Source: Sphingobacterium sp. SRCM116780 (GTDB taxonomy: Bacteria > Bacteroidota > Bacteroidia > Sphingobacteriales > Sphingobacteriaceae). Taken from it: a stretch of 64,000 nt of DNA. Below, piece after piece: positions 21,208-52,560 of this stretch (its first letter is position 1; each line of letters opens with the position of its first letter). The position numbers and the translations under genes are program-made. The stretch covers positions 3,720,001 through 3,784,000 of the forward strand of contig NZ_CP090446.1 in the NCBI RefSeq assembly GCF_021442025.1, written 5' to 3'. Under the pieces are notes generated by a model. The model worked only from the letters and a program-made list of their open reading frames with translations. It had not been told where the DNA came from and did no database searches.

Positions 21208-22929
21208 TTAGAATAAGTAATACAATTGTGTTAAGGGAAGTTTTTCCGCTGGTTCACATGTAATATATTCTCCATCTACTGTTACTTTGTAGTTTTCAGG
21301 ATTCACTTCAATCGAAGGAGTTTTATCGTTATGAATAAGATCTGCTTTAGAAATATTTCTACAGTTTTTAACTGGAAGAATCATTTTATCCAGCTTATAT
21401 GAAGAAATAGAGCCATTATCGATCGATATTTGCGAAACAAAAGTAGCACAGGTGCCAAATTTAGCTTTACCATGAGCACCAAACATATTTCTGTAAATTA
21501 CAGGCTGCGGTGTCGGGATAGAGGCATTAGGATCGCCCATTTTTGCAGCAACAACAAAACCACCTTTTAAGATCATCTCTGGTTTTACGCCAAATAATGC
21601 AGGTTTCCAGATCACCAAGTCTGCTAATTTACCAGGCTCAATAGATCCTACATATGCTGAAATACCATGAGCAATCGCTGGATTTATGGTATACTTTGCA
21701 ATGTATCTTTTAGCGCGGTAATTATCATTCTCAACTCCTTGATCTTCTTTCAACGATCCTCTTTGCTCCTTCATTTTGCTTGCTGTCTGCCAGGTTCTTG
21801 TGATCACCTCTCCTGGTCTTCCCATCGCCTGAGAATCGGAACTCATGATGCTGAATACGCCCATATCATGCAGGATATCTTCTGCAGCAATTGTTTCAGG
21901 ACGAATACGTGAATCAGCAAAAGCAACATCTTCAGGAATATTTTTACTTAAATGGTGACATACCATCAGCATATCCAGATGCTCATCTATTGTATTGATT
22001 GTATAAGGACGTGTAGGGTTTGTTGAGGCAGGAAGCACATTTGGATACATTGCCGCTTTAATAATGTCGGGTGCATGTCCTCCTCCTGCTCCTTCTGTAT
22101 GGAAGGTATGAATTACTCTTCCATTTATTGCTGTCATCGTATCTTCCAAAAAGCCACCTTCATTCAACGTGTCGGTATGGATGGCCACTTGAACATCATA
22201 TTTATCAGCTACTTTTAATGAAGCATCAATGGTTGCAGTCGTTGCTCCCCAGTCCTCATGAATTTTTATTCCCAAGGCCCCTGCTTCTACCTGTTCTTCA
22301 ATAGGTTCTTCAGCAGAACAGTTCCCTTTTCCAAAAAATCCTAAGTTCATCGGATATTCTTCTGCTGCCTCCAACATTTTTTGAATATTGAACTTTCCTG
22401 GAGTACAAGTCGTCGCATTTGTTCCATCATTAGGACCTGTCCCACCTCCTATCATAGTGGTAATTCCACTATATAAAGAAGTATCAATCTGCTGCGGGCA
22501 GATATAATGGATGTGCGTATCAATTCCTCCTGCTGTTACAATATATCCTTTTCCTCCATGAACTTCTGTAGAAGCGCCAATGATCATATTGGGAGAAACT
22601 CCATCCATAGTATCAGGATTTCCTGCCTTACCAACACCGACGATTTTCCCATCTTTGATACCAATATCCGCTTTTACAATTCCCCAGTGATCAATTATTG
22701 TCGCTCCTGTGATACAAAGGTCTAATACACCCTCGTCTCTTTTTGCACTTACATTCTGACCCATTCCGTCACGAACTGTTTTTCCACCGCCGAATACTGC
22801 TTCATCGCCATAATGAGTGAAATCTTTTTCTATCTCAATAATTAATTCGGTATCTCCTAGACGGATTCTATCTCCGGCTGTAGGTCCTAATATATTGGCG
22901 TATTGTTTTCTGTCTACCTTTAAACTCAT
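21208..22929 (-). CDS. ureC: Urease alpha subunit
   Basis: The 573-aa catalytic subunit hydrolyses urea to ammonia and carbamate with two nickel ions. All active-site residues are found: His139 and His141 in [10 protein letters not shown], the carbamylated Lys222 in [11 protein letters not shown], His251 in [10 protein letters not shown], His277 in [14 protein letters not shown], the flap Cys324 and His325 in MVCHHLSKN, and Asp365 in [10 protein letters not shown]. Length is about that of Klebsiella UreC (567). The frame is intact, so the enzyme should be functional. It is followed by the barrel gene after 67 bases. Confidence 0.99.
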
Positions 22930-26120: not shown

Positions 26121-27200
26121 TTACTTAATGACAACCTGAATTCCTGCCATTTTAGCCTTGTATTTGATCTTTTCAATCAATCCATAATAACTCCAATTGC
26201 GAAGAAGAAATTCATCTTTATTGTATTCATTGACTAACAACAGTGTTCCAGCTTGCGATTTCACACAGATATCGATCAATCGACGACTATAGAGATGAAG
26301 TCGGCTATCCACATAGTTCTTTTCCTTTTCATTATAATGCTCTAAACTTTTGAGTTTTCTTTTTCTACCGTTTCCGCCTTTGTTATAGTGGGAAGCCTTT
26401 TGCAAACGATGTCGCGCCGCTTGTATTGCCATAAGTCGATATAGAAACTCTTCCTTAGTCCCGATTTGATAACGGTCTTTATTAACAAGAACTGAAATTG
26501 GATGTTCTAGAGAAAGGGAAGCCTCTGCAGTGATATGACCTTTAAGAATATGATCTTCTTGAGGCAGCTCCAAAGATAAAAGTAAAAAGATTTTATTTTT
26601 TATAATCTTAATGGAGCTTGCACAAACCTTTATCTGACCCACCAGAGTACGTTGTAATAATACGCGTTTGTCAGAGTGATCTTTACCAAGATAAGTACGA
26701 AAAGGAATTTTAAATAAATCAAATTTAAAATCCAGCCCATTTCTACCGTTTCTTAATTGAATAGCTTTTGCGGAGAAAGGAATAGGCATATCTTTTTTAT
26801 AATTCCGCAAAGAACGTTGACCTTTCCAGTAAGCCAATCGGTCGGTTTGAAAATTTTTGATCAAAGTTGTATTAACTTGAAAAAGGATATCTGATGGAAC
26901 CTGATCTTTAAAATAACTGGAAAGGAGTAGGTAGGTTGTATTTATCCGAGAAGTTATCAATATTCCTTCATCGTCCTTTTCATCATTGGTCAATTTGGTC
27001 TTAATATCAGTTTTGAGGTAAATAAGATCCTTTAAATTTTCTTGGATATATTGATGTGTTAGAACAAGATTGGCACCTCGAAAGACAATATCCTGCCATT
27101 CGAGTAGTTTTTTGAAATACGCGACTCGTTTTTCTTTATCGTCAGAATCGATAAAAACTTGGATCTTTCGTGTCAGTATGATGGTCTTAGTCCTGTTCAT
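26121..27200 (-). CDS. TnpB/Cas12-like protein, predicted nuclease-dead, truncated before RuvC-III
   Basis: A 359-aa basic protein. The C-terminal 140 residues read like the RuvC part of TnpB/Cas12f: ASLSLEHPISVLV (225-238) stands where RuvC-I normally has its Asp; here Ser or Glu is found. A basic helical insert follows (YRLMAIQAARHRLQ to YNKGGNGRKRKLKS, then YSRRLIDICVK, 254-314), then GTLLLVNEYN (318-327) at the RuvC-II place and NWSYYGLIEKIKYKAKMAGIQVV (335-357), the helix and strand that in TnpB precede the third Asp and the zinc ribbon. The protein ends two residues later; none of the frames after the stop encode the missing part. No tnpA is near. DNA/RNA binding without cleavage is inferred. 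It starts at the edge of a four-unit repeat array. Other possibility: a different RuvC-like family. Confidence 0.72.
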   Translation of the reverse strand: MNRTKTIILTRKIQVFIDSDDKEKRVAYFKKLLEWQDIVFRGANLVLTHQYIQENLKDLIYLKTDIKTKLTNDEKDDEGILITSRINTTYLLLSSYFKDQVPSDILFQVNTTLIKNFQTDRLAYWKGQRSLRNYKKDMPIPFSAKAIQLRNGRNGLDFKFDLFKIPFRTYLGKDHSDKRVLLQRTLVGQIKVCASSIKIIKNKIFLLLSLELPQEDHILKGHITAEASLSLEHPISVLVNKDRYQIGTKEEFLYRLMAIQAARHRLQKASHYNKGGNGRKRKLKSLEHYNEKEKNYVDSRLHLYSRRLIDICVKSQAGTLLLVNEYNKDEFLLRNWSYYGLIEKIKYKAKMAGIQVVIK

Positions 27201-27219
27201 TTTTTAAAGGGTTAATCGT

Positions 27220-27291
27220 ATAACACAACTTAAGGTAACCCCCAGGCTCTTGACGGATTTTGTGGCAATGAGGCTGCCTAAGCTGTGTTAT
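27220..27291 (-). ncRNA. Candidate structured RNA, unit 1 hairpin
   Basis: The outer stem ATAACACA/TGTGTTAT and inner stem CTTA(A)GG/CCTAAG close a loop with TCTTGACGG. It lies 19 bases upstream of the TnpB-like ATG, so it is in the gene's leader if transcribed from upstream. Confidence 0.5.
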
Positions 27292-27401
27292 AATATCGTA
27301 TATTGGTATTGAAGTGTACGTTCCGATTTAGGAAAGGCTATTGCTTTTCAATGTTTTTTGTACACGTTTATTCATATATAGTTTTTTAAAGGGTTAATCG
27401 T

Positions 27402-27473
27402 ATAACACAACTTAAGGCAACCCCCAGGCTCTTGACGGATTTTGTGGCAATGAGGCTGCCTAAGCTGTGTTAT
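27402..27473 (-). ncRNA. Candidate structured RNA, unit 2 hairpin
   Basis: It differs from unit 1 at a stem position where T-G becomes C-G, which keeps pairing. A three-base difference (TCG versus GCA) lies just outside the stem. Confidence 0.5.
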
Positions 27474-27582
27474 AATAGCATATATTGGTATTGAAGTGTA
27501 CGTTCCGATTTAGGAAAGGCTATTGCTTTTCAATGATTTTGTACACGTTTATTCATATATAGTTTTTTAAAGGGTTAATCGT

Positions 27583-27656
27583 ATAACACAACTTAGGACA
27601 GCCCTAGGGCTCTTGACGGCTTTTTTGTGAAACTAAGGCTGCCTAAGTCGTGTTAT
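27583..27656 (-). ncRNA. Candidate structured RNA, unit 3 hairpin
   Basis: The stem here is the most complete: CTTAGG(A)CAGCC with GGCTGCCTAAG. The inner loop differs strongly from units 1 and 2 but keeps TCTTGACGG. Confidence 0.5.
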
Positions 27657-27773
27657 AATAAAATATATTGATACTGAAATGTACGCTCCGATTTAGAGAA
27701 ACCCGATGCATGCAACACTTTGTTATAGTAAAACTCTGTTCATGTTCTTTAGAAGAGTTAATGTCTAAAACAA

Positions 27774-27826
27774 CTTAAGGCAGCCCAAGGGTCTTGACGG
27801 GTTTTGCGGAACAAGGGCTGCCTAAG
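27774..27826 (-). ncRNA. Candidate structured RNA, unit 4 hairpin (diverged)
   Basis: CTTAAGGCAGCCC pairs with GGGCTGCCTAAG with one bulged A. The outer ATAACAC stem has been lost while the inner stem and TCTTGACGG remain, which marks the inner part as the conserved core. Confidence 0.45.
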
Positions 27827-27963
27827 CTGTATGGGTTATCAATAGAACTTATTGAGATGTAGTTGTTTATTTTTGTATAGCTATTTTTAATAGTGCATGT
27901 GTTGTGTATATCTTTACAAACGGAGTTTCTCAATAAGTCACCTTAATAAATAAGAAACGAACG

Positions 27964-28015
27964 ATGATGAAGATATTTAGCGAGTGGCTATTGCCCTCAC
28001 CCTAAGGCATCACAA
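27964..28015 (+). repeat. Second repeat family, copy A (short reading frame)
   Basis: This copy matches copy B at 28309-28356 over about 48 bp, including GTGGCTATTGCCCTCACC. In frame it reads KIFSEWLLPSP and then stops. The differences to copy B within those codons are mostly silent third-position changes (AGC/AGT, CCC/CCT), which hints at former coding function. The hairpin GAG-T-GGC-TATT-GCC-CTC is another explanation. Confidence 0.6.
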
Positions 28016-28260
28016 GAAACCTCTTTTCATGGTAGATGAATAGTTAAATATTGCTGAGGGTCTGATTTATCATAAAAAAATAGATATTTATCTCCCTTTT
28101 ATAATAAACATAAACATAATTGTGTATAGCTTTCAAATCAGGAGCCTTAACAAGACCAATATGAACAGACCCTAATATCGTATTTACTCTTTATAAGTTG
28201 CGGTATATACAATACCGATGGTAGTATATGCATTCAAAGATCTTATCAGATGATTTTTGA

Positions 28261-28410
28261 ATGGATATTGACTTTCTATTGAAAGAGCAATCCATGTTTA
28301 TGAAATTAAAAGTATTTAGTGAGTGGCTATTGCCCTCACCTTATGGCTTCACAAGCAGCCTCAAATTCTTTATCAATACCAATAAGTCAAAGAACATATT
28401 GAACGGATGA
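28261..28410 (+). CDS. Possible 49-aa small protein containing repeat copy B
   Basis: An open frame begins ATG at 28261 after an in-frame stop and reads MDIDFLLKEQSMFMKLKVFS, continues with EWLLPSPYGFTSS and ends KSKNILNG. Copy A shares FSEWLLPSP with synonymous changes. I do not recognise the peptide. No clear ribosome binding site; it may be a gene remnant, a leader peptide or a chance frame on a structured repeat. Confidence 0.3.
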   Translation: MDIDFLLKEQSMFMKLKVFSEWLLPSPYGFTSSLKFFINTNKSKNILNG

Positions 28411-28751: not shown

Positions 28752-28770
28752 ATAATTATTTTATTTGTTT

Positions 28771-29244
28771 GTGTCAAGAACTAATCAAAATATCCTAGAA
28801 TATATTGGCGTTCAATTTCGTTTGAAAAGGGAGGAACTTTACTTTTCACAAAAAGATATTGCTGATATGACAGGAATTACCACTAATACAGTCTCTACAG
28901 TAGAAAGAGGAAAGGGAACTACTCTGAACAATTTCTTGTCGATTTGTCGTGCTTTGAGTATACAACCAAAGCAACTGTTTGAACAAGATATGGATCTGAC
29001 ACCTCTATACGAACTTCCTCCTCTAAATAAGCGTAGGTTAGAAATCACACAGAAGCTGGATGATTTGGTGTACAATTCTGATTTCTTTGATACGCCAAGA
29101 CGTGTCTCGGAAGTTTTATCGGCATTGAAATCGGATAAAACTGACAGTAACAAATTTTCTGTATACTTAGCAAGTTATTGCAAAGAAGACGTCCTAGAGT
29201 ACACAAAACAAGGTAATTTTAACCGTTATAGTAAAAAAAGATAA
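28771..29244 (+). CDS. XRE family transcriptional regulator
   Basis: A helix-turn-helix protein of about 157 aa. The HTH is FSQKDIADMTGITTNTVSTVERGKGTTLNNFLSICRAL at residues 25-62. A helical C-terminal part follows (KLDDLVYNSDFF, RVSEVLSAL) and a basic tail (FNRYSKKR). I used GTG 28771; TTG 28765 is also possible, no ATG is available. It is divergent from the TnpB-like gene, with 1.5 kb of repeats between. It may control that locus or itself through the ATTGTGCAA repeats. Confidence 0.85.
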   Translation: MSRTNQNILEYIGVQFRLKREELYFSQKDIADMTGITTNTVSTVERGKGTTLNNFLSICRALSIQPKQLFEQDMDLTPLYELPPLNKRRLEITQKLDDLVYNSDFFDTPRRVSEVLSALKSDKTDSNKFSVYLASYCKEDVLEYTKQGNFNRYSKKR

Positions 29245-52240: not shown

Positions 52241-52249
52241 AAAACATTT

Positions 52250-52358
52250 TAGGTGCCTATATCGGCGGTGTCTACCTCTTCCCATTCCGAACAGAGCAGT
52301 CAAGCCCGCCAGAGCCGATGGTATTGCCGTAACAGGTGGGAGAGTAGGTCGGTGCCTT
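52250..52358 (+). rRNA. 5S ribosomal RNA, copy 1
   Basis: The core CCCATTCCGAACAGAGCAGT and the closing stem AGGTGCC/GGTGCCT are present, length about 108. Confidence 0.95.
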
Positions 52359-52367
52359 TTTTTATAC

Positions 52368-52392
52368 AAATAGCCTTTTAATAAGGCTATTT
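52368..52392 (+). terminator. Hairpin between the two 5S genes
   Basis: AAATAGCCTT pairs with AAGGCTATTT. The T run is weak, so some transcripts may read on into the second 5S. Confidence 0.7.
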
Positions 52393-52442
52393 CGCTTTTA
52401 ATCTGATTTGTTTTACATCAATTTAATTGATTCAAAATATTT

Positions 52443-52551
52443 TAGGTGTCTATATCGGCGGTGTCTACCTCTTCCCATTCCGAACAGAGCAGTCAAGCCC
52501 GCCAGAGCCGATGGTATTGCCGTAACAGGTGGGAGAGTAGGTCGATGCCTT
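52443..52551 (+). rRNA. 5S ribosomal RNA, copy 2
   Basis: Nearly identical to copy 1; the closing stem is AGGTGTC/GATGCCT, in which a C-G pair of copy 1 has become T-A. A second copy in one operon is unusual. Confidence 0.95.
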
Positions 52552-52560
52552 TTTTTATAC

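Follow-up and report, generated by a model that had tools for sequence, protein, structure and literature searches.

RNA-guided transcription by dCas12f-sigmaE systems is a recent discovery: in complex with a guide RNA and the sigma factor sigmaE, a nuclease-deactivated Cas12f (dCas12f) brings in RNA polymerase, and transcripts begin at a fixed spacing from the R-loop. Entries 9N9C, 9N9M, 9N9O and 9N9Q of the Protein Data Bank (PDB) represent the dCas12f-sigmaE system of Flagellimonas taeanensis. TldRs are nuclease-dead repressors derived from TnpB (PMC13418256). Here we describe a dCas12f gene from Sphingobacterium sp. SRCM116780, located in a stretch of 64,000 nucleotides (contig NZ_CP090446.1, positions 3,720,001 to 3,784,000), hereafter the window. 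The family is known, and what is new here is a variant without its sigma factor. The gene probably encodes an orphan dCas12f, which would bind DNA through guide RNAs without cutting it, would not activate transcription, and could repress it.

The window protein matches the dCas12f-sigmaE system in its homology over the full length, its truncated end, its dead RuvC site and its linked guide RNA. It differs in that the sigma partner, present in relatives within the genus, was not detected in the window genome; in addition, the loop at residues 323-335 is altered, the guide modules lie outside a canonical array, and a leader hairpin is present fourfold. With Cas12f (Al3Cas12f, 9NZO and 9NZR; AsCas12f, 7WJU) it shares the N-terminal and RuvC-I/II fold, and its relatives carry CRISPR-type repeats, but it is ~360 residues long as against 415-540, and the three RuvC acids and the zinc ribbon of an active nuclease are absent. 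Like a TldR, it is predicted to bind DNA by RNA guidance with a dead RuvC domain and no sigma factor, and repression by occupancy is possible. Unlike a TldR, it is closest to dCas12f and Cas12f, its guide RNA is encoded upstream with CRISPR-like repeat ends, and the RuvC-III/zinc-ribbon end is gone; descent from a transposon TnpB and a 3' omega RNA, the marks of a TldR, were not found. On sequence grounds its descent is not that of a TldR, though it may work like one. No omega-RNA-like conserved region was found on the 3' side of the gene, and a conserved omega RNA there was rejected because the downstream DNA varies among relatives.

The gene occupies window positions 26121-27200, exactly as in a preliminary description made from the letters alone, lies on the minus strand (359 residues), and is present as a single copy in the genome (G000; one contig, 4.28 Mb, 97% complete). 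The protein matched the NCBIfam profile guided_TnpB (NF040570, E-value 9e-13, residues 92-357) and TIGR01766, while Pfam gave one sub-threshold Cas12f TNB match and nothing else. Among sequences of solved structures, the best match was the 'Nuclease-deactivated Cas12f' 9n9c (365 residues; E-value 6e-112, residues 6-358), followed by Al3Cas12f (9nzo, 1e-38) and AsCas12f (7wju, 6e-17). Alignment with 9n9c, 9n9m, 9n9o and 9n9q extended over the full length at 47-49% identity, and the C-terminal ends fell at the same point. An AlphaFold model (predicted local distance difference test score 82.6) retrieved the dCas12f structures 9n9m (E-value 4e-40) and 9n9c (9e-38) as its top fold matches, and both profile and fold agree with the preliminary assignment to TnpB/Cas12-like proteins.

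As the preliminary description had stated, no RuvC-I Asp is present at the ASLS motif, where Ser228 aligns with the catalytic Asp of Al3Cas12f. The region of the catalytic RuvC-II Glu reads LLLVN and contains no acid. RuvC-III and the zinc ribbon, reported as absent, are missing from the window protein, from 9n9c and from 60 out of 60 distinct homologues (49-100% identical), which stop at a common point, typically ...YKAxMAGINVIVE*; no continuation was found downstream of the VVIK stop. Because this stop is shared by all 60 homologues and 9n9c, the truncation is ancestral, and we rejected both frameshift and decay as reasons for the missing RuvC-III. RuvC nuclease activity is not expected from this sequence. 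Its sequence and fold, together with the dead active site and the linked guide RNA, lead us to assign the window protein to the dCas12f of the dCas12f-sigmaE family. The earlier proposal of a nuclease-dead, RNA-guided, domesticated regulator is well supported by the match to solved dCas12f, the genus-wide truncated form and the linked predicted guide RNAs.

Matches to the protein were found in 55 of 150 relatives, all Sphingobacterium, and a search of genome contigs returned 32 loci, nearly all from this genus; plasmids and phages yielded distant transposase-like matches only. One Sphingobacterium-like dCas12f contig (L047) is binned as a Neobacillus metagenome-assembled genome, probably a binning error.

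In 54 of 59 relatives, an open reading frame (ORF) of ~270 codons lies upstream and stops some tens of bases short of dCas12f. It encodes an extracytoplasmic function (ECF) sigma factor (TIGR02937, E-value 2e-16, one member tested) with homology to RpoE, which is chain C in 9n9q (3e-36). No such ORF is present at the window locus. A profile built from 24 sigma orthologues scored ~1e-123 to 1e-126 in the sister genomes G058 and G044, and detected an orthologue unlinked from dCas12f in G081 and G049 (~1e-100). Run on the whole of G000 it returned no orthologue, only ordinary ECF sigma factors (best E-value 3e-9), and the result was the same for G029 and G031. The cognate sigmaE is thus missing both at the locus and in the genome, and the window does not hold a complete dCas12f-sigmaE system. 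In the protein tree, the window sequence branches within a clade of sigma-positive relatives (support 97). L092 (G029) and L093 (G031) fall elsewhere, as a pair on long branches (support 88). Therefore, sigma was lost at least two times in the genus, unless the placement of L092 and L093 is wrong.

Broken copies of the system also occur. A second locus in G058 (L073, G058:C1:1172400-1176400) is the reverse of the window, with sigma intact, scaffolds present and dCas12f broken. Lone C-terminal dCas12f fragments of ~30-70 residues (L066-L072) are found in several genomes and are probably remnants of lost copies.

The preliminary description had reported no CRISPR array in the window. That is correct as regards canonical arrays, but 0.7-1.2 kb upstream of dCas12f there are two guide-RNA modules. 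The elements of the locus are as follows.

26121-27200, minus strand: dCas12f gene, 359 residues, ending before RuvC-III and the zinc ribbon (from the ORF, profiles, homologues and solved structures).
26196-26234, minus strand: codons for residues 323-335, a candidate sigma-docking loop conserved in sigma-bearing relatives, here with Q325E and a 6-residue deletion.
27200-27840, minus strand: four tandem leader copies of ~182 bp, the most upstream one partial, each with a CAATACCAATA box and a hairpin with AAAATCCGTCAA loop.
27881-27900, minus strand: guide B, ACATGCACTATTAAAAATAG, its start placed from the repeat end.
27901-27912, minus strand: CRISPR-repeat-like 3' end GATATACACAAC before guide B.
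27971-28023, minus strand: guide-RNA scaffold B, two hairpins (covariance model, 70 bits, E-value 1.9e-27).
28096-28119, minus strand: guide A, TTATGTTTATGTTTATT..., 3' end uncertain.
28120-28129, minus strand: CRISPR-repeat-like 3' end CTATACACAA before guide A.
28310-28362, minus strand: guide-RNA scaffold A, two hairpins (covariance model, 75.6 bits, E-value 6.6e-30).
28765-29244, plus strand: divergent gene for an XRE-family helix-turn-helix (HTH) protein, 159 residues, ORF intact.

The scaffold is a 53-nt two-hairpin element that in relatives lies between the sigma gene and CRISPR-like arrays. Covariation backs its pairing: 90% of cells are paired, and 35 cells are changed on both sides compared to 13 in shuffles, with none of 500 shuffles as high and the signal abolished when the partners are slid. 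Every one of the 43 searched genomes that encode a full-length dCas12f gave strong scaffold matches, and no listed genome lacking it did, as counted from the tables of protein and scaffold matches; both window scaffolds score on par with those of sigma-positive relatives. The locus encodes guide RNA with two scaffolds, which the protein is predicted to bind. The linker from scaffold to repeat end is ~58 nt in module B and ~180 nt in module A. Pairing of an anti-repeat in the DNA after the scaffold with the CRISPR repeat was weak at the two loci scored (z -0.4 to -2.0). The compact loci L092, L093, L094 and L096 consist of scaffold, short linker, ...TATACACAAC and then guide, an arrangement that we read as a natural single-guide RNA. 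Several relatives (L037, L039, L040, L046 and L032) carry degenerate CRISPR-like arrays upstream of sigma, with a ~36-nt repeat (e.g. GTTGTTGATGATCTCAAAATGTAGGGTATACACAAC) and a 66-bp period. Dozens of loci in a single genus, some with CRISPR-like arrays, others with predicted natural single-guide RNAs, and with sigma repeatedly lost, allow one to ask about target choice, the sigma-binding surface and the change from activator to repressor.

Relatives have one copy of the leader hairpin, with its CAATACCAATA box and AAAATCCGTCAA loop, ahead of the sigma gene, and 10 of its 11 predicted pairs show compensatory changes. In the window the hairpin's copies now adjoin the dCas12f start codon; a DNA search of relatives with the 182-bp repeats gave nothing convincing. 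Given this junction, we infer that deletion of the sigma gene may have brought dCas12f under the sigma leader.

Changes accompanying sigma loss were scanned in the three sigma-less orphans (window, L092, L093) over 130 columns conserved among 43 sigma-bearing rows. The highest-scoring stretch was residues 323-335, near the former RuvC-II site. Here the window differs in 2 of 10 columns (Q325E, plus a gap that belongs to the 6-residue deletion; p 0.09), L092 in 5 of 10 (p 9e-4) and L093 in 9 of 10 (p 1e-7). Q325 is altered in all three orphans and kept in control rows, even those with far longer branches (L097, L098, L102); 9n9c likewise carries NQ...AK in the loop, and in G081 and G049, where sigma is unlinked, the loop is mostly kept with Q325 intact. 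Since L092 and L093 do not count as independent cases and the stretch was selected post hoc, the loop is a strong lead rather than proof. We infer that it forms part of the sigma-binding surface, a prediction directly testable against structure 9N9Q.

Candidate targets were sought by a few pattern searches with reversed-pattern controls. Guide A is common to the window, L031 and L104, and occurs with one change in L105. Over its first 14-16 nt it is identical to the DNA at the start codon of a tandem susC gene (position 393933 of G000; SusC by TIGR04056, E-value 3e-191), which suggests this start codon as the candidate site. In G011 the match is 14 nt; the guide carried by G044 differs at one position from the two sites. 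For guide B, whose loci occur in G000 and G058, the tentative target is a conserved 24-nt intergenic site, CATGCACTATTTATAAAGAACATT, which is identical in these two genomes and lies at C1:862480 in G000; ten other genomes have no copy of it even when 3 mismatches are allowed. The guide-site matches are 12 and 14 nt, and a conserved gene follows the site at ~400-680 bp, with guide B on the coding strand. G000 and G058 are close relatives, and the shared guide and site may therefore be co-inherited. The guide shared by L094 and L096 gave matches near control level.

We hypothesize that dCas12f would be expressed with two guide RNAs, each consisting of scaffold, repeat remnant and a guide of ~12-20 nt, and that the complex would bind matching DNA without cleaving it. 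With sigmaE and the loop lacking, RNA polymerase would not be recruited; sitting on a promoter or a start codon, the complex could instead block transcription or access to the start site, as with TldR. That such blocking is the remaining effect is a tentative proposal by analogy, which we consider plausible but somewhat doubtful. It is less likely still that the orphan lineages (the window; G029 and G031) have turned from RNA-guided activators into repressors, retaining their guides and shedding the sigma-docking loop. If true, the orphans would be a natural switch from activation to interference, made at least twice in one genus, and the window may illustrate how an activator guided by RNA becomes something different.

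Several observations weigh against a functional orphan. The window branch of 0.20 exceeds that of most sisters, which fits slow decay too; for the window alone, the loop gives p 0.09 plus the deletion, in a stretch chosen after inspection; and, with up to 3 mismatches in 20 allowed, guide B matches nothing in G000 but itself. The pairings span 12-16 nt only, in numbers not above the reversed-pattern controls, and the susC start motif also occurs in G034, a genome without dCas12f, so the link between guide A and susC is no more than suggestive. After sigma loss, dCas12f and its guides could be a non-functional relic, drifting and so far unbroken. The long branch, the eroded loop, the presence of only two guide modules and the frequency of decayed dCas12f copies across the genus all point this way. 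We nevertheless find a relic rather unlikely: the ORF is full; 123 of the 130 columns conserved among sigma-positive relatives are unaltered; both scaffolds keep their scores; the XRE HTH gene is intact; and the guide B seed and its intergenic site are kept together in G000 and G058.

Continued activation with a borrowed ECF sigma factor encoded elsewhere is improbable. Pairing in trans is tolerated, since in G081 and G049 the true sigma is encoded away from dCas12f; several ordinary ECF sigma genes are available in G000; and guide B is on the coding strand ahead of a conserved gene. But the sigma factors of G000 match only partly and weakly, and the loop mostly retained in G081 and G049 is altered in the window. 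The N-terminal two thirds do resemble active Cas12f, yet an active or split nuclease with RuvC-III supplied elsewhere, or a sequencing frameshift, has next to no chance of being correct and was ruled out by the family-wide conservation of the end, along with the Asp-to-Ser replacement and the lack of any continuation. An orphan, DNA-binding dCas12f is the reading that we prefer, in line with an intact ORF whose nonsynonymous difference from its sisters is 0.11-0.14 while synonymous sites are saturated.

Orthologues of the XRE HTH protein adjoin the guide region in many relatives, both sigma-positive and sigma-negative. Elsewhere in the window, an Rfam 5_ureB_sRNA match (22479-22772, plus strand) is antisense to a urease-like gene (21208-22929), perhaps through mere protein-coding similarity, and a tandem pair of 5S rRNA genes lies behind an rRNA operon (52249-52553).
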